Under the pieces are notes generated by a model. It was not told where the DNA came from and did no database searches. It worked only from the letters and a program-made list of their open reading frames with translations. This document shows, piece by piece, positions 5,233-28,109 of a stretch of DNA of 64,000 nt. Every line of letters begins with the position of its first letter. Positions within the stretch are counted from its first letter, which is position 1. Origin of the DNA: Nitrososphaerota archaeon (GTDB taxonomy: Archaea > Thermoproteota > Nitrososphaeria > Nitrososphaerales > UBA183); the NCBI GenBank assembly GCA_027386095.1, contig DAHXUN010000001.1, positions 1-64,000 on the forward strand, written 5' to 3'. The position numbers and the translations under genes were made by a program.

Positions 5233-5880
5233 ATGGTGACGGTAGACCTCGCGTTCAGGCTCAGCGGCTCCGAGATACCGGTCGACCACGGCTACGCCCT
5301 CTACTCTGCGATTTCGCACGTGATCCCTTCCCTGCATGGGGACGAAGGCGTGGGAATCCACCCCATCTCGGGGCTCCTCGCCGGGGACGGGCTCCTGCGG
5401 ATAACGGATAGGAGCCGCCTCGTGCTCCGGGTGAAGAGCGAGCGCGTCAGAGACTTCATCCCCCTCTCCGGCAAGCGACTGAACGTGGACGGGCACGGGC
5501 TCCTCGTCGGCCTCCCCACCCCGATGATGCTGCGACCTGCCGCCAGGCTCCGCAGCAGGGTCGTGGTGATCAAGGGCTTCCTCGACGTGGAACCCTTCCT
5601 CGAAGCTTGCGGGCGGCAGCTCGGCGCCCTGGGGGTGGCCGGCAGGCCGAGCGTACCTTCTCGAGCTTCGCCCGGACCCGTCGAACATGGCAAGGGCGGC
5701 AGACTCCCCTTCGTCAGGAGGACGTTGAGGATACACGACAGGACAATCGTAGGGTACGCGGTGGATGTGGACGATTTGAGTCCCGAGGGTTCGATAAGAC
5801 TGCAGGAAGAAGGTCTTGGAGGGAGAAGGAGATTCGGGTGCGGGGTGTTCACTCCTCCTAAGAGCGATGCAGAGCGTTGA
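5233..5880 (+). CDS. cas6: CRISPR repeat-processing endoribonuclease Cas6 (MYXAN/Cmx6-like)
   Basis: Cas6 cuts the CRISPR transcript within each repeat to make guide RNAs. The 215-residue protein opens with the Cmx6-type signature (VDHGYALYSAISHVIPSLHG, then GIHPISG) and closes with the glycine-rich RNA-binding loop GLGGRRRFGCGVFTP. It is the first gene of the locus; its TGA overlaps the TTG start of cas3 (TTGA). The repeat carries a 5-bp hairpin with a GUAA loop suited to Cas6 recognition. ATG at 5233 fits the conserved N-terminus. The Cas6 call is firm; the subtype label rests on recognised signatures. Confidence 0.87.
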   Translation: MVTVDLAFRLSGSEIPVDHGYALYSAISHVIPSLHGDEGVGIHPISGLLAGDGLLRITDRSRLVLRVKSERVRDFIPLSGKRLNVDGHGLLVGLPTPMMLRPAARLRSRVVVIKGFLDVEPFLEACGRQLGALGVAGRPSVPSRASPGPVEHGKGGRLPFVRRTLRIHDRTIVGYAVDVDDLSPEGSIRLQEEGLGGRRRFGCGVFTPPKSDAER

Positions 5881-9619: not shown

Positions 9620-9660
9620 CCCCGGCCGTATACCGTCGTCTCTGATGCCTCCGGGCGTTC

Positions 9661-10680: not shown

Positions 10681-11372
10681 GCGAGCGACAATTGGCCTAC
10701 GAGGTGCTCGCGCGGCCAACCGGGGAGGTGGGTCCCCTGGCTCTGTATGTGTCCGTGCCTGTGGCCTCGTTCAGGAACCCGCACGCGAGGGAGTACCTGG
10801 AGACGTACCCGTGCCCTCCTCCTTCAACGGTATACGGGATGCTCCTCTCGGCCGTGGGGGAGACCTCCCGCCGCGCGCACATGGGAGCGGAGATCGCCAT
10901 CGCGATGATTTCGAGACCTGCCCTGTCTACCGTCCTCCGCACCAAGTGGCGGGTGAAGTCCGGGCGCGTCCCCCTCGGGAAGGGGGAGAACAAGGTCCCC
11001 GACTTCCAGGAGGTGCTCACCGACGTAAGGATGGTCGTGTGGGTGAGGAGGGGCGAAGGGGAGAGCGCCTCCCCTCCGCTCGTGGAGCGGCTCCGGCAGG
11101 TCCTCCTGCATGGGGCAAGCGCCAGGCGGTTCGGCGCGCTCTCCCTCGGCGAGAGCACGCACCTCGTGGACGACTTCAGGGCCTGGCGCGGAGAGGACGG
11201 GTCGAGGGGGAGGGTGCTGGTCCGGGACGACGAAAGGGGCGACCTCACCCTGCCCATATGGGCGGACCACGTGAGCTCGATGCGCACCAGATGGGGGAGG
11301 TACCGGCTCGAAGAAAGCGAGTGGGGCGGGGGGTTGCCGGAGAGCGCCTGGGTGAAGATCGTTCCAGGCTGA
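10677..11372 (+). CDS. cas5: Cascade subunit Cas5 (Cmx5/DevS-like)
   Basis: Cas5 caps the 5' handle of the guide RNA. The 231-residue protein starts with GTG inside the cas7 stop (GTGA). The N-terminal RAMP strand and following motif (VSVPVASFRNPHAREYLETY, then PCPPPSTVYGMLLSAVGE) are typical of Cas5, where a PP-T-x-x-GM segment follows the first strand. Its stop overlaps an ATG at 11372 that is the natural start of the cas4-cas1 gene. Confidence 0.9.
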   Translation: MSERQLAYEVLARPTGEVGPLALYVSVPVASFRNPHAREYLETYPCPPPSTVYGMLLSAVGETSRRAHMGAEIAIAMISRPALSTVLRTKWRVKSGRVPLGKGENKVPDFQEVLTDVRMVVWVRRGEGESASPPLVERLRQVLLHGASARRFGALSLGESTHLVDDFRAWRGEDGSRGRVLVRDDERGDLTLPIWADHVSSMRTRWGRYRLEESEWGGGLPESAWVKIVPG

Positions 11373-13008
11373 TGAAGACCCACCCGTCCGGGCGGCTGGG
11401 CTTCACGCGCTGGCGTACTGCGAGCGGCTGTACTACCTCGAGGAGGTCGAGCAGATACGGCTCGCCGACGCATCGGTCTACGCCGGCAGGGAGATGCATG
11501 GGCGCCTGGAGCGGTCCGGAACGGCGCACGGCCATAGGCTCTTCTCGTTCGCGAGCGGGAGGCTCGGCCTGGCTGGGCAGGTGGACGCCGTCCACCACAG
11601 GGAAGGCGGCTGGATACCATACGAGCACAAGCGAGGGCGGGCAAAGCGAGGCCCTGAGGGCGAGCCCGAGGCATGGCCATCTGACGCCCTGCAGGTCATG
11701 GCTTACGCGCTGCTCATCGAAGAAGCCACGGGGAAGAGGGTCCGTGAGGGCAGGATCAGATACCACGAGGACAATGCGACAGTGAGGGTGCCCCTCACGG
11801 ACGAGGGGCGTGAGCTCGTGCGGAAGAGCGTTGCAAGGGCGAAGGAGCTGCGGACGCAGAATACGCGGCCGCCAGTGAACGCCAACGAGAACGCGTGCAT
11901 CCGCTGCTCGCTCGCGCCCGTCTGCCTCCCCGAGGAGGAGAGGCTCCTCACGTCCCCCCAGTGGGAGCCTGTCAGGCTGTTCCCGGCCACGACAGACGGG
12001 GAGGTGGTCCACCTCTTGACGCCCTCGCTTAGGGTGGTCAGGAGCGGCGAGGCCTTGGTCGTCAAGAGGAAGGGCGAAACCGTTTCGACGTACCCGATAC
12101 ACGGCATCGCTGCCCTGGCCGCGCACGGCAACGTGCAGATAACGACACAGGCGTTGCATCTCTGCGCGTTCAACGGGGTCCCGGTCAGCTGGTTCACCTC
12201 CGGCGGCAGGCACATCTCGTCTCTGACCGTCGGTCCCGGATCGGTACAGAGGAGGGTCAGGCAATATCACGCCCTCTGCGACCCCGCGACATGCCTGGGC
12301 CTTGGGAGGCGGCTCGTCAGAGCGAAGATCGAAGGCCAGCTGGCGCTCATCCTGAGGTCCAGCCGCGGAGGCCGTGGGAGGCCCGCTCAGACCCTCAGGG
12401 ACATAGTCGAGATGAGAGACGCCATCAAGATGGCCGGAAGGGCCGAGGGGATAGACTCTCTCCGCGGGATCGAGGGGACGGCTGCGCGAGCCTATTTCGA
12501 CGCGCTTTCCGTTCTCGTCGCGAAGGCCGACCCGAGCCTGCAACTCGCCGGTCGTACCCGCCGCCCTCCAAGAGACAAGTTCAACGCGATCCTGTCCTTC
12601 GGTTATTCGCTGCTCTACGCCTCCGTCCTCCAGGGGATAGTGTCCGTCGGGCTCGAGCCTTCCCTTGGGTTCTTCCACACGCCTCGTTCGTCTGGGCAGC
12701 CTCTCGCCCTGGACGTCATGGAGCTCTTCCGAGTCCCCGTCTGGGACGTCGTCGTTGTCGGTTCGGTCAACAGGCACCAGTGGGATGCGCCAGGGAAGTT
12801 CGAGGTAACAAAAGACCGCGTGTGGCTCTCGGACTCGGGAAGGAGAGAGGCCATCAAGCTGTTCGAACAGAGGATGGAAAGCCTGTGGAAGCACCCTGTG
12901 ACTGGCTATTCGCTATCATGGAGACGCACGATAGAGCTCGAGGTGAGGCTGCTGGAAAAGGAGTGGAGTTCGACCCCTGGTCTATTCGCGCGGGCGAGGC
13001 TGAGGTGA
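11372..13008 (+). CDS. cas4-cas1: Cas4-Cas1 fusion, apparent frameshift near the 5' end
   Basis: This fused adaptation enzyme joins a Cas4 PD-(D/E)XK nuclease with Fe-S cysteines to the Cas1 integrase. In frame are the Cas4 N-terminal cysteine motif (ALAYCERLYYLEEVE), nuclease residues (LAGQVDAVHH, YEHKRG) and the C-terminal cluster NACIRCSLAPVC. Cas1 follows from about 11965 with catalytic E in GIEGTAARAYF, H in GFFHTPRS and D in LALDVMELFR. The Cas4 motif frame has no start codon before 11494, which lies inside the domain. ATG at 11372 is one base out of frame. One extra C in the ACCCACCC run near 11380 would give MKTPPVRAAGLHALAYC, a normal Cas4 start. Either a sequencing error or a real 5' frameshift. 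Confidence 0.9.
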
Positions 13009-13018
13009 CCACGCGTAG

Positions 13019-13303
13019 TTGAGAGGCTGGTACCTCGTCTGCTATGACGTCAGGGACGAGACTCGGCTCAGAAGGGTCCAAAAAATCATGCTCGGGTACG
13101 GCCACAGGCTGCAGTACAGCATATTCAGATGCCGGCTGAGCGAAAGGGACGTGGAGCGGATGAAATGGGAGCTGATGGAGGCGATGGAGACCGAGGACGA
13201 CCTGCTCGTGGTGGGCCTGTGCAAAGCGTGCGTAGGCAGGCTGCGGGCGAACGGCTCGCACGCTACCTGGCCCAAGGAGGCCCCGAGCTACGAGATAGTT
13301 TGA
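13019..13303 (+). CDS. cas2: CRISPR adaptation protein Cas2
   Basis: Cas2 is the structural partner of Cas1 in spacer integration. The 94-residue protein begins with TTG at 13019 and shows the ferredoxin-fold start WYLVCYDVRDETRLRRVQ, then LQYSIFRCRLSERD, as in known Cas2 proteins. It is the last gene of the cas unit, 106 bases from the first repeat, which places the leader between them. Confidence 0.93.
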   Translation: MRGWYLVCYDVRDETRLRRVQKIMLGYGHRLQYSIFRCRLSERDVERMKWELMEAMETEDDLLVVGLCKACVGRLRANGSHATWPKEAPSYEIV

Positions 13304-13409
13304 AATTCAAGCACCGCCGAGTGGGTCGGGGCGGGAGCGGTAGAACGCACGGCGGACGCAGGGGAGATTAACGGGTGCTTGATTCCCGAGCTTCACGCCG
13401 TAGGTGGCG
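13304..13409 (+). promoter_or_regulatory. CRISPR leader
   Basis: The 106 bases between cas2 and the first repeat are G-rich with a short AT-rich block GGGGAGATTAACGGG near 13362-13376. The leader is assigned here because the degenerate repeat is at the opposite end of the array. No clear TATA box can be defined. Confidence 0.6.
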
Positions 13410-14742
13410 GTGCAGGAACCTCTGATGCCGTAAGGCGTTTAGCAGCAAGATGGTCGTGCGGAACTTCACCAGATCGCACGGGTGCAGGAACCTCTGATGC
13501 CGTAAGGCGTTTAGCAGAAGGGTTACGATGCGAAGGCGTTTCGTCGGCGGAAGTGCAGGAACCTCTGATGCCGTAAGGCGTTTAGCAGATTCTCATGATT
13601 TCCGGGGGGGTGGTGACAGGGATAGTGCAGGAACCTCTGATGCCGTAAGGCGTTTAGCAGATCGACCCGACAATAGAAAAGGTTCTGTTGTCGATGTGCA
13701 GGAACCTCTGATGCCGTAAGGCGTTTAGCAGAGACCTAAGGTGGTCGAAGTCGAAGACCGTCGGGGCGTGCAGGAACCTCTGATGCCGTAAGGCGTTTAG
13801 CAGGCTAATCCTGCGTCATTAGTCGATGTTACGGGAGTGGTGCAGGAACCTCTGATGCCGTAAGGCGTTTAGCAGGTTGAGGGTGTAGTAAGTGAAGTTG
13901 GAGTCTGAGCGTGCAGGAACCTCTGATGCCGTAAGGCGTTTAGCAGGTCGTCTACATGGCCTTCGCCCCCGCCGCTCAGGGGGTGCAGGAACCTCTGATG
14001 CCGTAAGGCGTTTAGCAGGGGGCAATCGCGACGGATGCCGAGGTGAAAGCAGGTGCAGGAACCTCTGATGCCGTAAGGCGTTTAGCAGTTCTCTGCCACC
14101 CCCGTAGGGAGCATCGTGGTCGCCGTGCAGGAACCTCTGATGCCGTAAGGCGTTTAGCAGGCTATGAGCGCGATGGAGTCGTTGGTGTCCATGTGGCCGT
14201 GCAGGAACCTCTGATGCCGTAAGGCGTTTAGCAGGTCAGGACGCCAAGCGCGACCACAGCCGCGATGATGACGTGCAGGAACCTCTGATGCCGTAAGGCG
14301 TTTAGCAGATCTACGTCGGAGACGCGGCGCTCGCAGGTTCTCCCGGTGCAGGAACCTCTGATGCCGTAAGGCGTTTAGCAGTCAGCCGGAAAGTTCACCG
14401 GTGGAATCATCGGCCTGTGCAGGAACCTCTGATGCCGTAAGGCGTTTAGCAGGTAAAGAAGGCCAGGGGGACGAAGTTCACGAACACGGTGCAGGAACCT
14501 CTGATGCCGTAAGGCGTTTAGCAGGAGGGGAGACGGGCAGCCCTTCCGCTTTTCTCCAATAGTGCAGGAACCTCTGATGCCGTAAGGCGTTTAGCAGATG
14601 GGTATCAGACACAAACCCAAACCTGCAGTCCTCCGTGCAGGAACCTCTGATGCCGTAAGGCGTTTAGCAGAATTGCTGTTCCTGTGGATTGAATTGGTCA
14701 TTCAGAGTGCAGGAACCTCTGATGCCGTAAGGCGTTTTTCGA
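13410..14742 (+). CRISPR. CRISPR array, 19 repeats of 36 bases, 18 spacers of 34-38 bases
   Basis: Repeats start at 13410, 13482, 13553, 13625, 13696, 13768, 13840, 13911, 13983, 14053, 14125, 14199, 14273, 14346, 14417, 14489, 14562, 14635 and 14707. The unit begins GTGCAGGAACC and ends GGCGTTTAGCAG; its core ATGCC-GTAA-GGCGT folds as a short stem with a GNRA-type loop. The first 18 repeats look identical. The last matches for about 31 bases and then diverges (GGCGTTTTTCG), marking the distal, oldest end. Spacers differ from one another, and by eye I saw none copied from this window. Confidence 0.98.
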
Positions 14743-14828
14743 ACCGAGAAAAACCTCCGGATATCCGAGAGATGCGCTTCAGAGGTCCGAGAGATGCCCG
14801 ATGCACGAGTAGCGACATAGAGCCAGCG

Positions 14829-16127: not shown

Positions 16128-16571
16128 AGTGGCAACGCCTCCACGATTAGCACTCTCAATGCGCAAATCTCTTCAGATAACTCGCAGATATCCAACCTTC
16201 AGGCTCAAATATCATCCGACAATTCCGAAATCTCTTCTCTCCAATCGCAGGTATCGGCAGATACCGCACAGATATCGAGCCTTCAAGCCGCATCGGTGGC
16301 AGGTAGTTTCTCCTCAACGGTCAGCTGTCCTCTCTTCGGCAACTGTTCCTACACGATAAACGGTGCCTACGCCAACTACGGCACTAACACCGCATATGGT
16401 GTCTCGGTTACTTTCACCTTCTACTCAAGCAGTCAACAGACGCTGTGCAGCACCACAGTTTCTCTGGGGAGCGCATCAGGACACACCATAACACTGTTTC
16501 CCCAAACTACCTGCAACTCTAACTACAACATCGCCGCTTCTACTTATGGTTGGACATTCTCGCATACCTAA
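16128..16571 (+). pseudogene. Truncated coiled-coil extracellular-type protein
   Basis: An open frame runs from the edge of the insertion sequence with no proper start. It reads heptad-like repeats (ISTLNAQISSDNSQISNLQ and further copies of QISSxxx) for about 55 residues, then a beta-rich, Ser/Thr-rich domain with cysteines (VSCPLFGNCSYTINGAYANY) ending ASTYGWTFSHT. Such repeats plus a beta domain are common in archaeal surface proteins. The N-terminal part, including any signal peptide, is missing and is not found on the other side of the element. A GTG at 16296 could start only the beta domain. Confidence 0.6.
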
Positions 16572-16994: not shown

Positions 16995-18284
16995 ATGCCC
17001 TCCTACGAATCGGAATTCGAGGCTGTAATCAGCGGGATCCGCTCGCATGAGAAGTGGTTCTCAGAGAGCCTTCCGATGATAGCCAGCGAGAACCTCGCGT
17101 CCGAGCCTGTCCGGAGGGTCCTTTCGTCAGACCTCGGCCACAGGTACGCCGAGGGATGGCCGGGCGAAAGGGTCTACGCAGGGTGCAGGTACATAGACCA
17201 GATAGAGCTGCAGGCTATCGCGCTCGGCAAGAAGCTGTTCAGAGCCGACCACTTCGATGTCAGGCCTGTCTCGGGGGTCAACGCAAACTTAGCTGTATAC
17301 TCCGCGATTAGTGGGCCAGGGGACATGATGATGGCGCTCTCCATCCCCAACGGGGGGCACATCTCTCATGGGAAGAAGGACTTCGGAGGCACGGCGGGGC
17401 TGGTGCACTCCCTAGACGTGTCATACTTCGCGTTCGACAAGGATTCGATGAACATCGACGTCGATGAGACGAAGAAGAGGATTGCGGCGCTCCCTTCACT
17501 TAAGCTGGCGATGTTCGGCTGCAGCCTCTTCCTCTTCCCCCACCCCGTCAAGGAGCTGGCGCAGACCATACGCGACAAAGGTGGAGTAGTGTGCTATGAT
17601 GCGGCCCATGTCGCCGGGCTTATCGCAGGCGGACAGTTCCAGGACCCTCTCAGGGAGGGTGTCCAGATCATGACTATGAGCACCCACAAGGTGCTCTTCG
17701 GGCCTCAGGGGGGCGCGATAGCGTCGTCGGCCGAGTTCGCGGAGCCTCTTAAGAAGGCAGTCTTCCCTGGCACTGCGAGCAACCACCACCTCCATAACGT
17801 GGCCGCCAAGGCGATGGTCTTCGCCGAGTTCCTCCAGTTCGGGCGTGACTATGCGAAGGACGTCGTAGACAACGCTCAGACGCTCGCCGGGAGGCTCGCG
17901 GACCTTGGCGAGCGCGTCCTTGGTGAGAAGAACGGCTACACAATGTCCCACCAAGTGGCCCTCGACGTGACCAGGTACGCGGACGGAGGGGTGATCGAGA
18001 AGCTGCTGGAGGACCAGAACATAATATGCAACAGGGAGCCGATACCTGGAGACCTCCAGGCAGGGAGACACTATACGAACCCGGGCGGGATAAGGCTCGG
18101 AGTGTCGGAGCTGACACGACTGGGGATGGGCAAATCAGAGATGAACGAAGTGGCCGAACTCGTGCACCTTGGCCTCGGGGGGGAGAAGAAGCAGGAGGTC
18201 GTGGCCAGAATCGGGGAGCTCAGGAAGGGTTTCCAGAAGTTGAGATACTCGTTCAGGGACACGCCCGCGTACTCATTCAGCTAG
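16995..18284 (+). CDS. glyA: Serine hydroxymethyltransferase
   Basis: The enzyme interconverts serine and glycine, passing a one-carbon unit to a folate or pterin carrier. The 429-residue protein has the family's N-terminal ENLASEPV and GHRYAEGWPGERVYAGC segments, the PLP-contacting Asp in YDAAHVAG (about 202) and the Schiff-base lysine in MSTHKVLFGPQGG (about 232). Length is normal. The last 12 bases overlap the convergent DNA polymerase II gene. The start ATG agrees with the TATA box 28 bases upstream. Confidence 0.97.
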   Translation: MPSYESEFEAVISGIRSHEKWFSESLPMIASENLASEPVRRVLSSDLGHRYAEGWPGERVYAGCRYIDQIELQAIALGKKLFRADHFDVRPVSGVNANLAVYSAISGPGDMMMALSIPNGGHISHGKKDFGGTAGLVHSLDVSYFAFDKDSMNIDVDETKKRIAALPSLKLAMFGCSLFLFPHPVKELAQTIRDKGGVVCYDAAHVAGLIAGGQFQDPLREGVQIMTMSTHKVLFGPQGGAIASSAEFAEPLKKAVFPGTASNHHLHNVAAKAMVFAEFLQFGRDYAKDVVDNAQTLAGRLADLGERVLGEKNGYTMSHQVALDVTRYADGGVIEKLLEDQNIICNREPIPGDLQAGRHYTNPGGIRLGVSELTRLGMGKSEMNEVAELVHLGLGGEKKQEVVARIGELRKGFQKLRYSFRDTPAYSFS

Positions 18285-21200
18285 CGTAGGCGTTGAGAAG
18301 TCCGTCAGCTCCAGCTGGTCGGGCTTCCTCGGCCCCTGGAAGAGCTGGTCCAGTTCTCTCTGAAGCATGTCAAGCCTGTTCCTCAGATACGGGTCGACGT
18401 CGTACTCTCGGGCGAGGCGCTGCGCGATTTGGAGGTATTTCTCCACCGAAGCCCTGGTCAGTGTCCCCTTGATTTCGCCGCCGCAGCTGGGGCATTTGGA
18501 CGAGAGCGGAGGCCGCCGGAGCGTCATGCCGCAGCCTTTGCACTTGAACGCCTGGGTCGCGTACTTCTTCGCGTTCCCCATGATGTCCCTGATTAGATGC
18601 GTCCTGATGATGGATTCGACCACGTCGCGGGTAGACACAGCTTCTACAAGGGACGCGACCTCAATCTGCTTCGCGATCTTTTCATGGAGCGTCCTCAACG
18701 TGGAATAGGAAGCCCTGGAGCGTCTTATCGTGATGGAGCTTGTCGGATGGGTGAACCCGTAGCCGTAGAACTGGGACTCGCTTTCCAGGCGCGAGCCGAT
18801 GCGCTCGATCAAATGGGCCACGGATGACGCGGGCGGGGTGCCGAGGGTCTTCTCGTAGAACTCGAGCGGATAAATCCGTGCCACGTCGAAGTTATGCGCC
18901 TGCTCGTCCACCTCCGCCGGGAGGATCACCGGTTGTATCAATAGCGGCGTGTCCATGTAGCCGCCGATCTGCGCCGGGACATATTGCAGCGAGAAGTTCA
19001 GCAATGTGTCGACCAGCAGGAGTATGGAGTCGCCGTCTCCGTCGCAGTCCCGCCTCTTAGCAGAGTGCCAGTAGGGGTTTGCAAGGCAGACCTCCGTAGC
19101 TGAAAACCCCACTATCCGTCCGACTACACCCACCGAGGTATGGGGTGCGAGCCCGATCACCAGCCTCCCCAGTAGGTCGTCAGGCTTTGCGACGTTGTAA
19201 AACGGCTCCATACCATAGAGGCTCTGAAGCTCGTCGTCGATGCACTGGGCCATCTTGACCAAGTCTCCGCTGATGTCCGCAGGGACTATGATATCCTGGG
19301 GCTTGAGCTCCAGCACCTGGTCATCGGACTTCAGGGGGGCTCCCATGTGGTCGTGTGTGTAACCCAGACGAACCAAGGCTTGAAGGTCACCTTTTACGTC
19401 CCGTGGCCTGAAGTGGGTCAGAGGCTCGTTGGTGGCGTCGATCCTCAGGGTCCCGTCTTTGTAGACGAAGGCGTTGTGCCTGCTCCTGATGATCCCCTTT
19501 TCGATGGCTTCCGGGACCTTGGAGACGCTCGTCAGGCCCTTCACACCTTTCACCGGTTTGGACACAGAATGTGGGATCTTGGTCCTTAACCCCTCCAGCC
19601 GCGACTTGAAGTCGAAGTCCATCTTCGAATATGGGAGGGTCTTCGCCTTGCAGTTGGGACAGGCAGTGTCCTGGGACGTGGCGCCGCACCGGGGGCAGGC
19701 CATGAATGGTTCAGTCTCCTCGCCGCAGACTTCGCATTTTGGAGAGAGCCTTCTCTGGTTGCACCTGTGGCAGTACAGGTTGACGACCTCAATCTCGACC
19801 CTCCCCGCCCTGGCGGCGGCGAAGATGTCCCGCATCGGTCCGCCCCCGTAGCCCACGGGGAACAGCACGTGGACCGGGGGTTTCAGCCTCCTGACCATCG
19901 CCTTCTCCGGCCTCCCCACCCTGATGCCGATGGTGGTGGTGCTCTGCCTTCCCATCTGGATCCCCGAGAGGCGCCTGATGTAGTCAGGCGCGTCAGGAGA
20001 GACCACGGGCGCAGGCTCGCCTAGCCGCAGGAGCGCGCGGAGGATGACAGCCGGCTCTCCGGTGACGATTGCCACGTCTCCCTCGGCCTTGTGCTCGACG
20101 AGGCAGGTGTTCAGCACCCAGCGGACGTGTGGTACGGCGACGTCGATGACCACGTCCCTCCCCTCGGGTCGAGCGCTCTTCCGCAGTTCGGCCAGGTCGG
20201 AAGACTCTACCCTGTCGAAGCGCGGGGTATGCGAAGGATGCAGCGGGATGCCTAGCGCGCGTGAAATCGCTATGGCCTCCGCGGCGGTCGGGGCGATGGT
20301 CGGAGCAGAAGCCAGTTCCCTGGCCCTGTCGCCTCCTACCCCCGCCGAGGCCAGCGCTTCCGCGGCTCCTGGGACCTCCGCCATAGCGCGGCCCAGGTCC
20401 TGGGACCACCACTCTGGGACGTAGGGGGACGGCTGAAGCGCCTTGTTGCTCTCCAAAAAGTCGCCGTAGGTTATCAGGACGTCTCCGAGGTCGATTATCT
20501 TCGACATTAGCTCGCGCATCTCTTCCGCCTGCGACACGGTCGAGACCCTCATGACGCTCCCATCTTTCGTCAGGATTGTGGGCCCCTCTATGGAGTCGAC
20601 GAAGGCGATGGTGGCCGCCTTCCCCGGCATATCCACCTTCACTTGTGTCCCGGCCACGATTGGGAAGTCGAGGAGCGTGGCGACCGCCGGGTGTATCCCG
20701 ATGGTCGAGAGGCCCGTGTTCATTGACCGCCCATACCTGAGCCTGAAGCCTCCCTTGCTCCTAGGCATCGAGAGCACGGCCCTCCCCGAGATGACCTCTT
20801 CGAAGTGGGCGCCGGCCTTTTCGGTTTCGTTCGCCGTCTGTTGGGTCCCCCCTTTCAGCTGAGAGAGGAAGTCCCATCCCGATATGTTCAGGCTCGCGAG
20901 CTTCTTCGACAGTTTGTGGGCCCTGCCTATCACGCCGTCGTTGAGGACCCTCAGGGCGCCCCCTCTGAGCCTGTCTGTGGCCACCCGCTTGAGGTTCCTG
21001 TGGACCACCACTTCGATTGGATCAGTCTCGATTCCGTCGATCTCCACCGGGAGGTTGGAGATCGCCCGGCGGATGTCGTCGTCTGTCACCTTGTACTGGA
21101 AGTTCGCAACGTCGCGCTCGTAGATCCTCAGCTCCTCCGCGAAGCGGTCAATCTCTTCCTGGCCGGCCCTGTAGTTGCTCAAGCCTAGCTTCTTGGCGGT

Positions 21201-21737
21201 CACGTCCGCTATGACAAGAGAGAACGCCGCCTCGGTCCCCCCAGCCGAGCGCATCGGCCCTGCATAGGAGACAGAGACGTAATCGGTGTTGTCGTCGTTC
21301 TGTTTTATCGTGACTCCGGATATCCCTTCCAGGGGGGCCACGGTGACTCCATCTGTCATGACGGCGAGCCCTGCCCTGACCCCGTAGCTCAGGGCTTCGT
21401 GCCTCTCGAGCGCCCCGAACTTGCCCAGAGCTATCTCTTGGGAGATCGTCAGGGCTGCGCGCTCCTTAGAGGTGCTGTGGAGGAGCTCCCTGAGCCTGTC
21501 GACCAGCCCTTCGAATTGGTCCAGCCTGAGCATCTGGTTCACCCTGTCTGCCAGGTCGAAGACGGTCTTGCTCTCGACGACGCCTGTAGGATCGTGGCCT
21601 TTCATCCTCGCAGTGGAAGCCAGGCTGTGAGCGGCTTCGTACTGAGACAGTATGTCCCTGTAGTAGGGCTCAAGGCGAGGGGGGAATGGGGCCAGGGTCT
21701 TCACGCGCTGCCAGGCGAGGTCCGCCGAAAACGACAT
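18273..21737 (-). CDS. polC: DNA polymerase D (Pol II) large subunit DP2
   Basis: DP2 is the catalytic polymerase subunit of the archaeal replicative PolD; the small subunit DP1 is not in the window. The 1154-residue protein has the catalytic core NPYWHSAKRRDCDGDGDS, a central zinc-binding region (CHRCNQRRLSPKCEVCG, then CPRCG and CPNCK) and a C-terminal ribbon (CKGCGMTLRRPPLSSKCPSC). Length matches the family and no intein is present. ATG at 21737 gives the expected N-terminus. PolD places the organism outside the classic Crenarchaeota. Confidence 0.97.
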   Translation of the reverse strand: MSFSADLAWQRVKTLAPFPPRLEPYYRDILSQYEAAHSLASTARMKGHDPTGVVESKTVFDLADRVNQMLRLDQFEGLVDRLRELLHSTSKERAALTISQEIALGKFGALERHEALSYGVRAGLAVMTDGVTVAPLEGISGVTIKQNDDNTDYVSVSYAGPMRSAGGTEAAFSLVIADVTAKKLGLSNYRAGQEEIDRFAEELRIYERDVANFQYKVTDDDIRRAISNLPVEIDGIETDPIEVVVHRNLKRVATDRLRGGALRVLNDGVIGRAHKLSKKLASLNISGWDFLSQLKGGTQQTANETEKAGAHFEEVISGRAVLSMPRSKGGFRLRYGRSMNTGLSTIGIHPAVATLLDFPIVAGTQVKVDMPGKAATIAFVDSIEGPTILTKDGSVMRVSTVSQAEEMRELMSKIIDLGDVLITYGDFLESNKALQPSPYVPEWWSQDLGRAMAEVPGAAEALASAGVGGDRARELASAPTIAPTAAEAIAISRALGIPLHPSHTPRFDRVESSDLAELRKSARPEGRDVVIDVAVPHVRWVLNTCLVEHKAEGDVAIVTGEPAVILRALLRLGEPAPVVSPDAPDYIRRLSGIQMGRQSTTTIGIRVGRPEKAMVRRLKPPVHVLFPVGYGGGPMRDIFAAARAGRVEIEVVNLYCHRCNQRRLSPKCEVCGEETEPFMACPRCGATSQDTACPNCKAKTLPYSKMDFDFKSRLEGLRTKIPHSVSKPVKGVKGLTSVSKVPEAIEKGIIRSRHNAFVYKDGTLRIDATNEPLTHFRPRDVKGDLQALVRLGYTHDHMGAPLKSDDQVLELKPQDIIVPADISGDLVKMAQCIDDELQSLYGMEPFYNVAKPDDLLGRLVIGLAPHTSVGVVGRIVGFSATEVCLANPYWHSAKRRDCDGDGDSILLLVDTLLNFSLQYVPAQIGGYMDTPLLIQPVILPAEVDEQAHNFDVARIYPLEFYEKTLGTPPASSVAHLIERIGSRLESESQFYGYGFTHPTSSITIRRSRASYSTLRTLHEKIAKQIEVASLVEAVSTRDVVESIIRTHLIRDIMGNAKKYATQAFKCKGCGMTLRRPPLSSKCPSCGGEIKGTLTRASVEKYLQIAQRLAREYDVDPYLRNRLDMLQRELDQLFQGPRKPDQLELTDFSTPTLAE

Positions 21738-21859: not shown

Positions 21860-22381
21860 CTAGCGCGGCCGGGGGCGGCTCGCCTCGTTGGCGCGCCCTG
21901 ACGCGTCTGGTTGGAGGCTCGTCCGAGACTTGATGTGGTAATCGACGACGCGACGGTTCTCCCTGTCGTAGGTGAAACAGGCGTCGAAGCTTACGCCGTT
22001 CAGCAGGAGAGGGAGCCAGTACCTGTCGTCGTCCCACATCTTGGGGTAGGGGATCTCCCGGACGTCGAACCACCTGACCTCCCCCTCTTCGCTCGAGCGC
22101 GGTCTCCCAGAGAACCGCCTGACTGAGAAGACGTGCACCAAATAATCCAGGCTCCGGCCCCCGTTCATGTAGAACCCCAACTTGCCGTGGTAGAAAGGAT
22201 TGATTATCGACAGTGAGGTCTCTTCCATCACCTCCCTGACCACCCCCCTTCTGGCCGTCTCTCCTGGCTCTATCTTCCCTCCGGGCCCGTTCCACTTGCC
22301 GGCGCTTATCCCTCTGGTTGCCTTCTTCAGCAAGAGCCGGCGCCCCTTGATTATGTGGCAGACTGTCGCGTCGACCGTCAT
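21860..22381 (-). CDS. Nudix hydrolase
   Basis: Nudix enzymes hydrolyse nucleoside diphosphate derivatives; MutT-like members remove oxidised nucleotides. The Nudix box GKIEPGETARRGVVREVMEE is complete, and the N-terminal part (CHIIKGRRLLLKKATRGISA, then GKWNGPGGK) and C-terminal MWDDDRYWLPLLL resemble the MutT/NUDT1-like 8-oxo-dGTP branch. ATG at 22381 gives 173 residues; a GTG at 22429 would add 16. It lies behind polC on the same strand, but the 122-base gap suggests separate transcription. Confidence 0.88.
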   Translation of the reverse strand: MTVDATVCHIIKGRRLLLKKATRGISAGKWNGPGGKIEPGETARRGVVREVMEETSLSIINPFYHGKLGFYMNGGRSLDYLVHVFSVRRFSGRPRSSEEGEVRWFDVREIPYPKMWDDDRYWLPLLLNGVSFDACFTYDRENRRVVDYHIKSRTSLQPDASGRANEASRPRPR

Positions 22382-22650
22382 CGGCGAGACCCGGTCAAGG
22401 GCTACTGTTGGTAAATGTTGTTGTAACACCTTACGTGACTTAAGCTGGGCGGCTGACCCCTGAGCAGTCGAACTTCATACGGGTTCACGGAATGTGCAGG
22501 CTGGCGATCCCTCCCAAGGGCGCCATCCCCTGATTTACCCGCTCGACGGAGGGGACGTGGTCTGACCAGCGAGTGCCGGACTAAGGCCGAAGAACGTGGA
22601 GGACAGCGAGGTCGCTCCCGCAGTGGGCGGATGCGCCCTGAACGGCGCGG

Positions 22651-25600
22651 TCATGCGAGAGCCCCGCTCCTCCGTGCCTCGTAGCGCTCCATCAGCCTCT
22701 CCACGGCGCACGCCGGGTCGAAGGGCTCGAGGACGGAGGAGCACGCCTCGGCCAGCAGCCTGATGTAGCGGCCAGAGTCGTAGCGGTTTTGGTCCTCCAC
22801 CATGTCGAGCGGCGTCGCCCGCTTCGAGCCCCCGCTCCTGTAGTCCATGATGACGTAGCGTATCCCTTCCCCGGCGTGCAAGTCGACCCCTTCGTCCACC
22901 AGCTGTTTCGCTGCGGCGCGCTGCACGGTCGCCGTGGTGTACTCTCCAGGCGCCTTCGAGAGGTTGGTCGAAAAGGCCAGCTCGGAGGCTGGGACTTCGT
23001 GCCGCTCGAGCGTCCCCGCGCACCTGAGGAAGACCTCGACGCACTCCGAGACCTTGGCCCTCGCCGCAGCTACGGTGTCGGCCTCGGCCAGGATCTTCAG
23101 GATGGCCATCTGGCACCTCCTGAGAGCCGGCGGCGTGTCGCGGCGGCGCGCTTCGACCCCCCTCACCTTCAGGCGGCCGTCTTCGAAGGCCCCGAAGTAT
23201 CGATTGAGGGCAGGTAGCCCCGGCTCTGACTTCGATGACAGGAAGGCCACCCACTTGTAGACCCCCTCGAACGACATGGCGAACCCAGTCTTCTCCTCCA
23301 GCTCGGCTTTGAGCGCGAGGTAGTCGCCCTCCCCCGCCCCCTCTTTCCAGAGCCAGAGAGAGTCCACGATGCCATGCAGGACCTCGAAGCCTCTGGCTTC
23401 GGCCGCCCTCGCGGCGTCGGTTATGACCTTCCGGTCCCAGGCGCAGACGGCTATGTGGGCGTCGATGCGGCCGAACTTCGCGTTGTTGAACCCCAGGTAT
23501 CCGAAGCAGTTGTGGGTGAAGACGAGTCCGTCGCCTGTGAAGAACCCCGGCGTCTCGTCCTCGGCGATTTGGAAGCAGTAGACGTAGTCTGGACAGAGGT
23601 CGAGTCTCTCGATTTTTAGTATTCGGGCTAACCCCAGGTCGCTGTCAAAAAAATTCTCGACGTGCGACTTCTGGCGCGGCTGGGCTCGGTTCAACGCCCT
23701 AGGATCCATCCGGTCAAGCTTCAACGTGACTTGAGCCTGGCAGGTTCCGTACTCATACACGTGAGGCTCCGAGGAGGTTCGAGCGTCCTTGAGCGTGAAC
23801 CTGGCCCCGGCCGCCGGCAGTATGACGTATCTGGCGTGGTCACGGGTGCGAGAAGGTTCTTCCGACCAAGACCGAGCTACGCCTGGCTGGCCTTCCTTTG
23901 GATGCTCCCGGCTCCAGAACCACCTAGAGGTCTCAGGCCCCACAAAGTTGACGGTGTACATGGTGTCGTCGCCTTCGCGGTCGGTGCCTAGGCTGTAAGC
24001 CAGCCCGAGCCTGGACGCCAAGAACGCGATCTGTTGTTGTAGGCCTTTCGATGGCGTGGCGATGTCGAACCCACGCTTCTTGCCGGCGTGGCAGTCGCCG
24101 GCGACCATCCCGGAGACAAACCCATGCGCGACTGAATCACTGCAGTTGAAGACGAGCTCAGGGACCTTCAGCCCCCCTTTCTCTGCAGAACCCGGCAGCC
24201 CGAAGACGAGGTCGAGAACCCTCGCCAGGCTCGTGCTATTGACCTGGGCGACGTACATCTCTGCCCTCCGCTCCTTGTAGACTCTGGGCCTGATGCCGAA
24301 GAGAGACGCAACAACCCTCTTGGTTGCCTCCAGGAGGCCAGGCTCCGTCGATGCCATGCCCAGTCTTACGCAGGCGTTCGTGGCGCTGCCGCCGGCTACA
24401 TAGAGGCCAAGAAGGAACCCAAGCTCCTCGCCGACGTCTACCGCCGCTGGCAACCAGGCAACCCTGCCTCCGAGTCTGCGGCCGACCCCTATCCTCATTG
24501 TCGGATGTGAACTGGGACTGATATCGAGCAGCCCCAAGAACCCGAGCGGCATGGTCCCGCTCTTGATCCAATTGGCGACTGCTTGTGAAGAGTATCCCTC
24601 GGAAGCCGCCGCTCTGAGGAGCGCCTGTCTTCTTGTTTGAGCCCTTTCCTTCAGAAGCTCCCCGGACACCCTCCACAGGAACCGGTCGGCGGCTGGGATT
24701 GCCTCTAGCCGATCAATCAGGTCTATCTGACTGATCGAATGGCCCACCGACGAGATCCTGGTCGCTATGGGAACCGCTTCGTGCACCCTCAACTCTTCGG
24801 CTGTGGTTACCGTCAATCTCCCTCCTCTGAGGACGAAGAACGGGTGGTCCGGGGTGGTGGCTATCCTTCTGCCATCCTCCATCTCTACAGCTAGCAGCTT
24901 TTGGTTGTTCGGCTTCTTTATCAGATTGGCTACCCTGCTGTACTTCGCCTTGTAGTCAGGCCCCAGCCCTGCGACAGACACGTCCGGCGGACAGGCGATG
25001 ACTCCTGTCTTGTCTCCTGCGAGGCCATCTATGAAATCACCGATTCTGACGAACCGCTCGGTACCGCCTTGCTTCACAAGGACGGGTGACTCCCCGGGGA
25101 GGCAGGTCACCCCCAGCCATTTTAGGGCTGCCTGCCTGGCGTCGTAGCGTGCTCGGAGCGCCTCGTCGGCTGCCTTCCCTTTGATCTCCTTGTAGGAGAG
25201 CCTCTTCTCCACTATGATTCTGATGGAGCGGGGGACCATCCCCTCTCGCCGACATATATTCCAACCGAGCTCGGGGACGCGGTTCTCTGAGTCGGGGCAG
25301 CACGAGCACCTGACGGTCTCGGCAGAGATGTTCTTCCTGTACATGATGTTCGGGTAGAGGGCGGAGAAGTCCAGCTCCCCGACCCCTTCGTACACCCCCA
25401 CCCTCGGCTCGAAGACGAAGCCCCCTCGGTCCGCCGTCAGCAGCTCGTTCCTGTCCTTGAAGCGCTCCGCCAGGGTAGGCTTCCATGGAACCAGAAGGTC
25501 CGCTTTGAGTGCGTGGTAGAACTGGAGGCTGGAGAGGGCCTTGCCTATGCTCGCCCTGCTGGCTGTGTGGATGGGCATGCGGCAGACCCTGCTCAGCTCG

Positions 25601-26499
25601 AAGAGTACGTCGAGCCCTCCTTCGGAATAGGCGAACGAGGCGTTGACATCGATGTGCGCACGGCCACGGAGTCTCGTCGCCGAGGGCTTGTAGTGTATCT
25701 GCCCGTAGCTGAAATATGAAGTGCCCGGCTTCGACGGGAGCTTCAGGGGGGCGCCGTCCCTGTCGAGAGACAGCCTGACGCCGTTGGCCTCTGCACGCCT
25801 GACGAGGTAGGGGAAGAGGAACGTGTCCCCGTCGTCGGTCAGGATGACGTCCGGGTCGGCCTGGCGGACCGCCTCCGCCAGTTTGAGCAACTTCTCTGTC
25901 TCGCTCTGGCCTGCGATGGCCACTGGTTCGTCGTCGCACTCCAGTGTGAACGACTCTATCCGATCCGTGGGCTTCGGCAGCCTCCCCTCCTTAGCCACCT
26001 GCACGTCGAGTTTGGCTGTCCTCAGCGGAGGGGTGGCATAGTCGTAGGCCCAGGCGTCGTCCTCCAGGGTCCACCGCAGCCTCCCCCCATCGCTCATCAC
26101 CTCGCAGAAGGCGAGGGGGAAGAGGTCGTTCTCGTAGAGGTAGCCCTGGTCCGGCGGGACGTCGGCGTTGTAGATCCGGAACGTCCCGAAAGGGCCCAGT
26201 CTCTCTATCCGTTCGGCCACACGCCTGGCACTCCTGGCGTCGGCGAGTTTCGCTTCGAGCACGTCGGACCACTCGTGGCTGGTCACCGTTTCGCGCTTCC
26301 TGACCACCCTGGTCCACAGGAACTCGTCATGGAGTGTGTGGACAGGAACCGCGAAGTCTGACGCGGCGTTCGACCCTACGAACAGGGATGGTGACCAGCG
26401 GTCTGTCAGCCTCACCGCCCTGCCGTCCTCTGTCTTCAGCCAGACGACCATCTCCCCGGGGCCGCCCGGGTAGATGTCAAATATCCAGCCGCGAGTCAT
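22651..26499 (-). CDS. Divergent B-family DNA polymerase with intein (PolB2-like)
   Basis: The precursor has 1282 residues; without the intein it is 750. Motif A is intact (ELDFSALYPNIMYRKN). Motif B reads KWLGVT/CFGYLGF with the intein between T and C; the usual Asn-Ser-x-Tyr is changed. Motif C is HGIVDSLW instead of YGDTDS, keeping only the second Asp. The N-terminal exonuclease-like domain lacks the usual DIE motif (SFTLECDDEP instead). These changes resemble the altered PolB2-type lineage and suggest a special role such as lesion bypass rather than bulk replication. ATG at 26499 overlaps the preceding small gene by 23 bases. Last gene of a four-gene unit. Confidence 0.85.
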   Translation of the reverse strand: MTRGWIFDIYPGGPGEMVVWLKTEDGRAVRLTDRWSPSLFVGSNAASDFAVPVHTLHDEFLWTRVVRKRETVTSHEWSDVLEAKLADARSARRVAERIERLGPFGTFRIYNADVPPDQGYLYENDLFPLAFCEVMSDGGRLRWTLEDDAWAYDYATPPLRTAKLDVQVAKEGRLPKPTDRIESFTLECDDEPVAIAGQSETEKLLKLAEAVRQADPDVILTDDGDTFLFPYLVRRAEANGVRLSLDRDGAPLKLPSKPGTSYFSYGQIHYKPSATRLRGRAHIDVNASFAYSEGGLDVLFELSRVCRMPIHTASRASIGKALSSLQFYHALKADLLVPWKPTLAERFKDRNELLTADRGGFVFEPRVGVYEGVGELDFSALYPNIMYRKNISAETVRCSCCPDSENRVPELGWNICRREGMVPRSIRIIVEKRLSYKEIKGKAADEALRARYDARQAALKWLGVTCLPGESPVLVKQGGTERFVRIGDFIDGLAGDKTGVIACPPDVSVAGLGPDYKAKYSRVANLIKKPNNQKLLAVEMEDGRRIATTPDHPFFVLRGGRLTVTTAEELRVHEAVPIATRISSVGHSISQIDLIDRLEAIPAADRFLWRVSGELLKERAQTRRQALLRAAASEGYSSQAVANWIKSGTMPLGFLGLLDISPSSHPTMRIGVGRRLGGRVAWLPAAVDVGEELGFLLGLYVAGGSATNACVRLGMASTEPGLLEATKRVVASLFGIRPRVYKERRAEMYVAQVNSTSLARVLDLVFGLPGSAEKGGLKVPELVFNCSDSVAHGFVSGMVAGDCHAGKKRGFDIATPSKGLQQQIAFLASRLGLAYSLGTDREGDDTMYTVNFVGPETSRWFWSREHPKEGQPGVARSWSEEPSRTRDHARYVILPAAGARFTLKDARTSSEPHVYEYGTCQAQVTLKLDRMDPRALNRAQPRQKSHVENFFDSDLGLARILKIERLDLCPDYVYCFQIAEDETPGFFTGDGLVFTHNCFGYLGFNNAKFGRIDAHIAVCAWDRKVITDAARAAEARGFEVLHGIVDSLWLWKEGAGEGDYLALKAELEEKTGFAMSFEGVYKWVAFLSSKSEPGLPALNRYFGAFEDGRLKVRGVEARRRDTPPALRRCQMAILKILAEADTVAAARAKVSECVEVFLRCAGTLERHEVPASELAFSTNLSKAPGEYTTATVQRAAAKQLVDEGVDLHAGEGIRYVIMDYRSGGSKRATPLDMVEDQNRYDSGRYIRLLAEACSSVLEPFDPACAVERLMERYEARRSGALA
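23509..25104 (-). other. Intein (532 aa) inside the B-family polymerase
   Basis: The intein starts with Cys in CLPGESPVLVKQGG and ends FFTGDGLVFTHN, followed by Cys of the C-extein (CFGYLGF). Block B is seen as TTPDHPFFVL and the C-terminal splice motif as the final His-Asn. The middle carries two degenerate LAGLIDADG-type helices (LGFLLGLYVAGGSA and AHGFVSGMVAGDCHAG), a homing endonuclease of the DOD class that may have lost activity, as acidic residues are not in the usual places. Splicing residues look intact. The insertion site is polymerase motif B, a conserved active-site position favoured by inteins. Confidence 0.92.
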
Positions 26500-26737
26500 T
26501 CCCTGCCCTCGCCTTCGCCAACCCCGCCAGCCTTGCGATGGCATTGTGCTGTACGAGCAGGAGGCACATGATGAGTGCCTCGTCGGGGAAGACAGGGTCC
26601 CCGGCGCACATCGCTGAGGAGTATTCGTGGCACTTCTGGACCATACGTGCGAAGCGCGCCCTGTCTTCATCTGGCAGGGCATTCGCGAAGCTGCGCCAGC
26701 TGTCGAGCGCCTCGACGGCTTCGCCTGAGAGGGTCAT
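26477..26737 (-). CDS. Small helical protein, 86 aa, paralogue of the next gene upstream
   Basis: The protein (start MTLSGEAVEALDSWRSFANA) shares a pattern with 26734..27000: W-R-x-F-x3-ALP-x2-DR-x2-F, then a helix with C and Y-(A/S)-S-A, then a C-terminal helix with hydrophobic face. Its start overlaps the stop of that gene (ATGA), and its end overlaps the polymerase start by 23 bases. No catalytic motif. Probably a protein-protein adaptor of the polymerase unit (inference from context). Confidence 0.75.
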   Translation of the reverse strand: MTLSGEAVEALDSWRSFANALPDEDRARFARMVQKCHEYSSAMCAGDPVFPDEALIMCLLLVQHNAIARLAGLAKARAGNDSRLDI

Positions 26738-27000
26738 CTCTTCGCATCTCCTCGGCCCGCATTCGACGCCTCGATGGACCGCTCGATGAGCCTGTAGTGA
26801 TTGAATATCATCGCCATGGCCATGCCTTCGAACCTAGACGACCTGGTAGCAGCGGAGGAGGCGGAAGCGTAGAGCCTCGCCGAGCACAGCAAGTCATCAA
26901 AGGGTTCCCTGTCCCTCTTTGGGAGGGCCTTCCTGAAGGCCCTCCAACCGGCTGCCTCTTGGGCCTCGGCCACCCGGAACGAGGGGACGGTTCGACCCAT
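26734..27000 (-). CDS. Small conserved archaeal protein, DUF8156-like, 88 aa
   Basis: The start MGRTVPSFRVAEAQEAAGWR matches a small archaeal family that I recall as DUF8156 (MGRTLPTxR start, W-x2-F-R-x-A-L-x3-DR-x-x-F). Its ATG overlaps the stop of the RecA-like gene by one base (TGATG) and its stop overlaps the next gene by four. The family is found near B-family polymerase genes in archaea (from memory). Function unknown; probably an accessory of the polymerase/RecA-like pair. Confidence 0.75.
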   Translation of the reverse strand: MGRTVPSFRVAEAQEAAGWRAFRKALPKRDREPFDDLLCSARLYASASSAATRSSRFEGMAMAMIFNHYRLIERSIEASNAGRGDAKR

Positions 27001-27881
27001 CAGCGCCGAACCCCGACTCTAGCGGCCTTCAGCAGGAGGTTAGGTTTGAAGGTGGCGACGTAGGGGGCCAGGTCGCTTCGGCCGAGGCGCTCTGCCCTGA
27101 CGCAGTCCCTGCGGTGTGAAAGAGAGATCGCTGTGTCGGCCCATGACACGACAAGCCCGTCGTACTTGTTGGGCGATGGCAGGGTCGCGATGACGAGAGA
27201 GCGCTCCTTCAGCTCCTCGATGCCTTCATAGACGGCGCCCAGGACGCGCCTCGCCTCCCGCTCGTCCAGCTCCGGCTCGTTGAAAGTGCCGAGGACGTCG
27301 GAGATTATCACCAGCCTCGCCCCGTAGTCCTCTGCGGCTCGTGCCAGGCGCTCTGAAACCAGCTCGGCCAACTGATAGAGCGTGAAGGCGCGGCAGGAAG
27401 CGACCCGCCTCATCGCGGCGCGGGGCCCGACGCCTCGCTGCCTGGCGAAGGATGAGAAGAGGTATGGGTCGGAGCGGTTGCCCCCGTCTATGAACACGAC
27501 CGCAGAGTCGAGGCCGCCCGATTCGACCGGGAGCTGAGCCCTGAACGCTGCTAGCTCTGCGACAGTCGAAGCGTAATCTCCGCTGAACAACACCAGCCGC
27601 CTTTCCGACAGGGGCCTCAGGAGCGAATCCAGCGGAGGGAACCCGAGCGTGAAATGCGGAATCGAAGAGGCGCGCTGGAACAGCGCCTCCGGCCTTGGCG
27701 GGGATATGGGCCCCGGGACGTCTAACGGGCAGCCGCGATCGACGCATGAGCTGGCGGGGAGGTGCGCGTCGAAGGGCGGAGCTCGGCTGAGCTTCAGGAT
27801 GCAGTCGCAGCAGGAACAGTGGTAAACAGATATTTTCTTCCCTTCGACCGTCTGCTCATAGAGGTAACGCAACCGTTCCAT
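27000..27881 (-). CDS. RecA/RadA-superfamily protein lacking a P-loop
   Basis: The 293-residue protein has an N-terminal cysteine-rich segment (YHCSCCDCILK, later CVDRGCPLD) and a RecA-like core with a Walker B-type strand (GARLVIISDVLG) and a RadA-like end (DTAISLSHR). At the Walker A position it reads RRLVLFSGDYASTVAEL, with no GKT/GKS, so ATP binding of the usual kind is unlikely. It is first in an overlapping unit leading to the divergent polymerase. By analogy with the bacterial RecA-like ImuA beside translesion polymerases it may be a recruitment factor; this is a hypothesis. Confidence 0.75.
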   Translation of the reverse strand: MERLRYLYEQTVEGKKISVYHCSCCDCILKLSRAPPFDAHLPASSCVDRGCPLDVPGPISPPRPEALFQRASSIPHFTLGFPPLDSLLRPLSERRLVLFSGDYASTVAELAAFRAQLPVESGGLDSAVVFIDGGNRSDPYLFSSFARQRGVGPRAAMRRVASCRAFTLYQLAELVSERLARAAEDYGARLVIISDVLGTFNEPELDEREARRVLGAVYEGIEELKERSLVIATLPSPNKYDGLVVSWADTAISLSHRRDCVRAERLGRSDLAPYVATFKPNLLLKAARVGVRR

Positions 27882-27980
27882 TGTGCGATTGCTCGCCGCG
27901 GTCTGAATTTAACGTGGGATTCTCAGGCGACCCTTTTCGAACAGAGGGTGGAGCGAAAGTGCTTCCATCGGTTCAATGTT

Positions 27981-27987
27981 CTTAAAG
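27981..27987 (+). promoter_or_regulatory. TATA-like box for tRNA-Leu
   Basis: CTTAAAG lies 29 bases before the first base of the tRNA, in otherwise G+C-rich DNA. Confidence 0.5.
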
Positions 27988-28012
27988 CGAAGGTTAGGCT
28001 CGCCCTGACGGC

Positions 28013-28097
28013 GCGGGGGTCGCCCAGCCTGGTCAACGGCGTGAGGCTCAGGACCTCATCCCTTAGGGGTTCGAGGGTTCGAATCCCTCCCCCCGCA
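28013..28097 (+). tRNA. tRNA-Leu (anticodon CAG)
   Basis: The 85-base sequence folds as a class II tRNA. Acceptor arms are GCGGGGG and CCCCCGC with discriminator A; the D arm is GCCCAGCCTGGTCAACGGC. The anticodon stem TGAGG/CCTCA has loop CTCAGGA (anticodon CAG), there is a long variable arm, and the T arm is GAGGG-TTCGAAT-CCCTC. No CCA is encoded and no intron is present. Confidence 0.96.
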
Positions 28098-28109
28098 CTC
28101 AGGCACCCC

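Follow-up and report, generated by a model that had tools for sequence, protein, structure and literature searches.

Four overlapping genes of a Nitrososphaerota archaeon, encoding a RecA-like protein, two small paralogues, and a divergent B-family DNA polymerase, raise the question of whether they form a translesion synthesis (TLS) unit and, if so, how such a unit relates to those already known. The genes lie in the first 64,000 nucleotides of contig DAHXUN010000001.1 (assembly GCA_027386095.1), a stretch referred to here as the window, and a preliminary description had taken them for an archaeal counterpart of the bacterial ImuA/ImuB/DnaE2 set. Our analysis indicates that the unit is very likely a PolB2 mutasome operon (iRadA, PPB2a, PPB2b, and PolB2) and that its PolB2 is a precursor with an intein in polymerase motif B, the endonuclease of which has very probably lost its activity. 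This identification is based on gene order, homology, the state of the catalytic motifs, the anatomy of the intein, conservation, and the pattern of selection. The operon itself is already known: Makarova 2014 (PMC4104785) joined PolB2, arCOG07300, and an inactivated RadA in one predicted operon, and Timinskas 2025 (PMC11791011) named PPB2 and iRadA and modeled a PolB2-iRadA-PPB2 complex with a 1:1:3 stoichiometry. The proposal that a RecA-like protein and small helpers serve an archaeal polymerase in translesion synthesis is right in substance, but it is not new, such a unit having been described as the PolB2 mutasome.

RESULTS

The four genes encode the components of a PolB2 mutasome

The four genes are arranged on the minus strand in the order iRadA-PPB2a-PPB2b-PolB2, with successive overlaps of 1, 4, and 23 bases between their open reading frames (ORFs), in line with the 1 to 23 bases reported beforehand (Table 1), and they are probably cotranscribed. 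The iRadA core matches Pfam Rad51 and, as the preliminary description had it, is without GKT/S: the P-loop position (27552-27596) reads SGDYASTV, with neither GK[ST] nor GxxxxGK[ST]. An AlphaFold2 model of iRadA (38 sequences, mean pLDDT 69) matched Rad51/RadA chains of the PDB with a best E value of 1.2e-13. Within the N-terminal Cys cluster, Cys25 and Cys46 were invariant among 38 close homologues, and a C-x1-4-C ... C-x2-5-C pattern was present in 42 of the 62 hits to the iRadA model. This cluster could possibly form a zinc ribbon, with model confidence being low in that region. NCBIfam matches of the iRadA N terminus to NuoB were taken as chance.

The AlphaFold2 model of PPB2a consists of three helices (mean pLDDT 71), and its profile links to both PPB2 copies of relatives. 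PPB2b begins with MTLS, compared to MGRT in PPB2a, and the two are indeed the paralogues that they had been taken for (31% identity over 78 residues, with an E value of 1e-7 for that single comparison). According to the available text of PMC11791011, operons with two PPB2 copies have MGRT in only one, and a similar distribution was found here. At 57 loci with two PPB2 genes, a loose pattern for an MGRT-like motif was matched in the first copy only at 49, in the second only at 3, in both at 1, and in neither at 4; exactly one copy therefore carries the motif at 52 of the 57.

The PolB2 precursor starts with MTRGW at 26499, and the program-listed ORF start at 26682 is too early, since close relatives start at MTRGW. 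In addition to Pfam DNA_pol_B, it matches NCBIfam PRK05761 (E 1.5e-112, under the curated cut-off of that model). Without the intein, PolB2 comprises 750 aa, with motif B KWLGVT-CFGYLG and motif C HGIVDS, confirming that both motifs are altered. Motif B has V-T at the positions where canonical B-family enzymes have N-S. The VDS core of motif C is common to 74 to 75 of the 75 aligned PolB2s of the class; the first motif-C Asp is replaced, and the motif-A Asp and the second motif-C Asp are kept. The exonuclease domain is barely recognizable (23.1 bits compared to a Pfam cut-off of 23), and no clear exonuclease motif I is present, consistent with the preliminary description. By motif and profile, the window polymerase is placed in the PolB2 group, namely, B-family enzymes in which the first motif-C Asp is replaced and the exonuclease site is lost.

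These assignments bear on the proposed kinship with the bacterial ImuA/ImuB/DnaE2 cassette. The two share a similar outline layout, with a RecA-type partner, small proteins, and a specialized polymerase, but neither Pfam nor NCBIfam gave a C-family (DnaE2) or Y-family (ImuB-like) match among the four operon genes, and iRadA, an inactivated RadA, is nearest to RadA/Rad51 in both sequence and fold. Because the polymerase belongs to family B and no such match was found, the resemblance is only an analogy, and a homologous archaeal version of the cassette is rejected as extremely unlikely.

The operon is conserved within and beyond the class

Homologous loci were gathered in two surveys. For the class to which the window belongs, 400 genomes were searched with the polymerase, and 134 had a match at E 1e-20, a count that probably includes other B-family polymerases; 80 stretches chosen from these genomes, together with the window, gave 81 loci, which include a few gene halves (two stretches of one gene) or two copies per genome. 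For the phylum, 398 genomes were searched, 55 had a match at E 1e-35, and 20 loci outside the class were taken. The preliminary description had made its proposal depend on a conserved neighborhood, and this was found: iRadA-PPB2-PPB2 stands upstream of PolB2 on the same strand at 55 of the 81 class loci, and iRadA-PPB2-PolB2, with a single PPB2, at 12 of the 20 loci from other classes.

Elsewhere in the class, iRadA with a single PPB2 was found beside PolB2 at 3 of the 81 loci and PPB2 alone at 5, and neither was found at 6 loci with less than 2.5 kb of upstream room. At 3 of the 55 complete loci (L054, L085, and L086), a second RadA-type gene with intact GK[ST] directly precedes iRadA. The remaining loci from other classes had PPB2-PolB2 (3/20), iRadA without PPB2 (1/20), or neither on the PolB2 strand (4/20); at two of these last four (G675 and G696), iRadA-model matches adjoin PolB2 on the opposite strand. 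Paired PPB2 copies were not seen at any of the 20 loci outside the class, and PPB2 doubling therefore looks typical of the class. The nearest genome found, G001, encodes the same PolB2 precursor with 96% identity over 1282 aa.

PolB2 is interrupted in motif B by an intein with a probably inactive endonuclease

Although it lies inside the polymerase ORF, an intein of 532 aa had been missed by the preliminary description. It splits motif B (KWLGVT/CFGYLG) in the raw reading of the gene and matches Intein_splicing (E 8.1e-11), LAGLIDADG_3 (E 8.9e-10), and TIGR01445 (E 1.5e-11) in Pfam and NCBIfam. The intein begins with CLPGESPVLV and ends with FTHN before Cys998, and its splicing residues are intact (Cys1, TTPDH as TxxH, the His-Asn end, and Cys +1). 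An empty motif-B site (KWLGVT-TFGYLG) is found in relatives L116, L118, and L119. The motif-B intein site of PolB3 presumably lies one residue further upstream than this one. Because motif B is interrupted, the precursor would be inactive until splicing. Of the two catalytic Asp residues of the homing endonuclease, the one in the first LAGLIDADG motif is Gly in the window intein; its homing endonuclease is very probably inactive.

Comparison of the window with its nearest relative, L113, yielded ratios of nonsynonymous to synonymous substitution (dN/dS) of 0.17 for the extein and 0.11 and 0.00 for the two Hint parts, compared to 0.33 for the linker, 0.60 for the LAGLIDADG stretch, and 1.69 for the stretch after it. 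Residues 691-960 accounted for 28 nonsynonymous and 12 synonymous differences, versus 20 and 40 in the extein and Hint parts (Fisher P 0.0005), and the only indel between the two sequences falls within these residues. In the window lineage, the endonuclease region evolves nearly freely, while the extein and splicing domain are constrained. The simplest reading is that endonuclease function was lost recently whereas splicing was retained, and the pattern suggests that the polymerase is spliced and functional and that the intein is no longer mobile. With endonuclease activity very probably lost, the intein would now persist by splicing alone, and it is from the constraint that we infer splicing in the cell. 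Given this extein value and an arrangement kept in 55 of the 81 loci, the four-gene unit is not a product of chance.

The same data speak to whether the operon is degenerate, its polymerase being catalytically dead or decaying. Replacement of the first motif-C Asp, an exonuclease domain at the Pfam threshold, and an intein in motif B would all fit such decay, and PolB2 is called inactivated in parts of the earlier literature. However, extein comparisons overall gave dN/dS values of 0.14-0.24, the two other catalytic Asp residues are kept, and Sulfolobus PolB2, which is of the same type, is described as an active extender polymerase without exonuclease in vitro (PMC8764526). Since the extein is under constraint, we reject a dead operon, which is very unlikely.

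Several observations weigh against the identification of the unit as a conserved PolB2 mutasome with a recently immobilized intein. In close relatives L115/L036 and L116/L037, the PPB2a frame looks broken or fragmentary and MGRT was not found, through either real loss or assembly error, though PolB2 is constrained. At 12 of the 81 class loci, PolB2 is without detected iRadA or PPB2 despite more than 2.5 kb upstream, indicating that the unit need not occur as an operon. Some iRadA-model match was present in 8 of 10 genomes whose PolB2 locus is without partners, some of these matches being weak enough for ordinary RadA, and none was present in the other 2. The selection contrast comes from one sequence pair with few differences, and the LAGLIDADG stretch is not relaxed when compared with the far more distant L114 (dN/dS 0.21), a value that would be expected if endonuclease loss were recent.

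Related inteins recur in PolB2, with signs of both transfer and shared descent

An intein-only search, in which the 7993 best word-sharing candidates were scored, returned 37 proteins, 34 of which are B-family polymerases. The inteins parsed numbered 35, comprising 31 from these proteins, those of L033, L061, and L063, and that of the window, with L034 and L035 left out. Cys1 and a block-F Cys were present in 35/35 and Cys +1 in 33/35; block F of inteins usually has Asp at the position of this Cys. Mini-inteins without endonuclease made up 6 of the 35. Among the 29 full-length inteins, the second LAGLIDADG Asp is kept in 28 and the first in 25, with Gly in the other 4 (the window, L033, P0001, and P0002), although L033 and P0001 seem to be the same sequence. 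The intein of P0033 is 28% identical, and a search from P0033 returned 38 proteins: P0033 itself, 34 B-family polymerases, and 3 others. These 34 polymerases form a second group; by pattern, 31 of them have the insertion at the position seen in the window, and motif C reads HALVDS in 28. A plasmid search with P0165, a member of this group, gave 104 records, and the ten matches listed were haloarchaeal, with approximately 31-32% identity.

The motif-B intein recurs among archaeal PolB2s as well as in this second PolB2 group, most members of which are of the HALVDS type, and the alleles at the motif-B site are full-length, endonuclease-deleted, or absent. A different intein occupies motif A of L057 (G312), between GELDYS and SLYPNIM, while L123 (G696) carries inteins at both motifs and its near twin L122 at motif B only. 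Genome G321 has two PolB2 operons (L034 and L042), one polymerase with an intein (1292-aa frame) and the other without (754-aa frame).

A FastTree phylogeny of 115 exteins requires intein presence to have changed at least 15 times, a figure that describes the sample only, since protein rows were chosen for having inteins. The tree took in 28 of the 34 first-group and 13 of the 34 second-group proteins and omits L036, L052, L057, L067-L070, and proteins with unparsed intein ends; L061, labeled as full, is a mini-intein, which leaves presence or absence unaffected. P0006 and P0017 are more alike in their inteins (76% identity) than in their exteins (56%), suggesting transfer. Across pairs of 28 rows, intein and extein identities correlate (Spearman 0.68, median difference -0.02), which implies that much descent is shared. 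Between P0010 and P0031, the endonuclease region has been lost in one, with 94% identity elsewhere. Comparison with the empty allele L116 in successive steps of 60 bases showed no gradient of the kind that a co-conversion tract flanking the intein site would leave.

Conditional splicing has been published for RadA and DnaB inteins (PMC5790916 and PMC6195587, as far as their available text goes), and the window intein might likewise have ceased to be a mere passenger, with splicing releasing a mutagenic polymerase only under stress. An insert in motif B should leave the precursor inactive, the splicing domain is under constraint next to an endonuclease that looks dead, and the Cys residues at position 1, in block F, and at +1 could allow redox sensing. 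However, close relatives L116 and L118 live without the intein, the at least 15 gains or losses on the sampled tree resemble the pattern of a mobile passenger, and any intein in a gene that the cell needs would be expected to keep its splicing domain constrained. The block-F Cys is at most a hint of regulated splicing, and we regard stress-dependent release as unlikely. A broader proposal, that PolB2 mutasomes are a favored and repeated intein host (motifs A and B, two divergent groups) and that in some lineages, the present one included, an immobile intein with a conserved splicing-center Cys gates mutagenesis until stress, seems to us just as improbable.

Surroundings of the operon

A TATA-like GTTAAATTC lies approximately 30 bases upstream of the iRadA start (window about 27881-28000) and is kept in L113, L116, and L118. 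Its role as a promoter element is only suggestive, although it would suit a leaderless archaeal transcript. Scans for sigma-70 promoters and terminators found nothing above shuffled sequences, as expected for an archaeon. A tRNA-Leu(CAG) gene (28013-28098, plus strand) is divergent from the operon start. On the other side, DP2, with NUDIX or SHMT nearby, was found downstream of PolB2 at 11 of 89 loci examined, from 7 genomes, and is a feature of close relatives only. Farther away are a type I-like CRISPR-Cas locus (5877-14745), with an array of 19 repeats spaced by 70-74 bases (core GTGCAGGAACCTCTGATGCCGTAAGGCGTTTAGCAG, last copy degenerate), and four degenerate copies of a 36-base repeat spaced by 21 or 42 bases (16157-16276).

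Table 1. Coordinates of the operon, its parts, and neighboring genes in the window
Feature	Positions	Strand	Remarks
iRadA	27000..27881	-	293 aa; RadA/Rad51-like core without Walker A; Pfam Rad51 E 1.3e-5
N-terminal Cys cluster of iRadA	27729..27818	-	C22, C24, C25, C27, C46, C51
PPB2a	26734..27000	-	88 aa; MGRT start; position and start as in published PPB2
PPB2b	26477..26737	-	86 aa; paralogue without MGRT arm; aligned with second copies of six relatives
PolB2 precursor	22651..26499	-	1282 aa; Pfam DNA_pol_B E 6.1e-22
N-extein	25105..26499	-	Residues 1-465; motif A DFSALYPNIM at 25342-25371
Intein	23509..25104	-	532 aa; PolB2 residues 466-997, inside motif B
First LAGLIDADG motif	24388..24411	-	LGLYVAGG; catalytic Asp replaced by Gly
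Second LAGLIDADG motif	24088..24111	-	GMVAGDCH; Asp kept, following Gly replaced by Cys
C-extein	22651..23508	-	Residues 998-1282; CFGYLGFNNAKFG at 23470-23508; motif C HGIVDS at 23359-23376
NUDIX	21860-22429	-	Directly downstream of PolB2
PolD large subunit DP2	18273-21737	-	Downstream of PolB2
SHMT	16995-18284	+	Downstream of PolB2
Cas3	5877-8123	+	CRISPR-Cas locus
Two ORFs	7748-9619, 9661-10680		CRISPR-Cas locus; no Pfam match at E 1e-5
Cas4-Cas1 fusion	11494-13008	+	CRISPR-Cas locus

DISCUSSION

By homology, the four products of the PolB2 mutasome operon would form one complex, in which PolB2, a family-B extender polymerase without exonuclease, is held by an ATPase-dead RadA-like subunit and a helical PPB2 trimer, with the MGRT arm of the trimer placed between PolB2 and iRadA. 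PolB2 would be made as a 1282-aa precursor and presumably works only after protein splicing. The spliced enzyme would then act with iRadA and PPB2 in lesion extension, extending primer ends past DNA lesions with mutation as the cost. For the complex, lesion bypass, and damage induction, this model draws on published models and on work in Sulfolobus, where genetic work points to PolB2 as a damage-inducible, mutagenic TLS enzyme (PMC7390963).

The literature searched yielded no account of an intein in a PolB2-family polymerase, although most subscription papers lie outside that coverage and absence is unproven. In its available text, PMC4104785 discusses inteins in PolB3 and PolB1, and the main text of PMC11791011 never uses the word intein. 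The name 'PolB2' also appears in PMC12707363, there applied to split inteins from metagenomes that resemble an intein of phage type; judging from the available part of that paper, we consider this a different matter. In this archaeal class the PolB2 mutasome occurs frequently, most often with paired PPB2, and its polymerase repeatedly hosts inteins at catalytic motifs, with alleles that are empty, full-length, endonuclease-deleted, or left with an apparently dead endonuclease. This allele series provides natural material for the study of intein life cycles, and it offers a case in which control of an archaeal mutator enzyme by protein splicing can be put to the test.

Compared with known systems, the window operon most closely resembles the archaeal PolB2 mutasome as presented in the available text of PMC4104785 and PMC11791011, sharing its three protein families, gene order, inactivated RadA, MGRT on one of two PPB2 copies, and replacement of the first motif-C Asp. 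It differs in that the window PolB2 has a motif-B intein. PPB2 duplication, a variant in the published mutasome, is the usual form at the class loci examined here, and most iRadA hits here have the N-terminal Cys pattern, whereas the main text of PMC11791011 does not mention zinc. With Sulfolobus islandicus Dpo2 the window enzyme shares the PolB2 group and an isoleucine at the first motif-C Asp (401-IID-403 in Dpo2); in contrast, no intein is mentioned in the available portions of PMC7390963 and PMC8764526, and the host is only distantly related. The inteins of PolB3 and PolB1 (PMC4104785, available text) likewise reside in archaeal B-family polymerases, but the host here is PolB2. Finally, Pol V (UmuC/UmuD'/RecA) and ImuA/ImuB/DnaE2 also combine an error-prone polymerase with a RecA-type partner and small subunits, but their polymerases belong to other families, and the RecA-type subunit here is without the ATPase motif.

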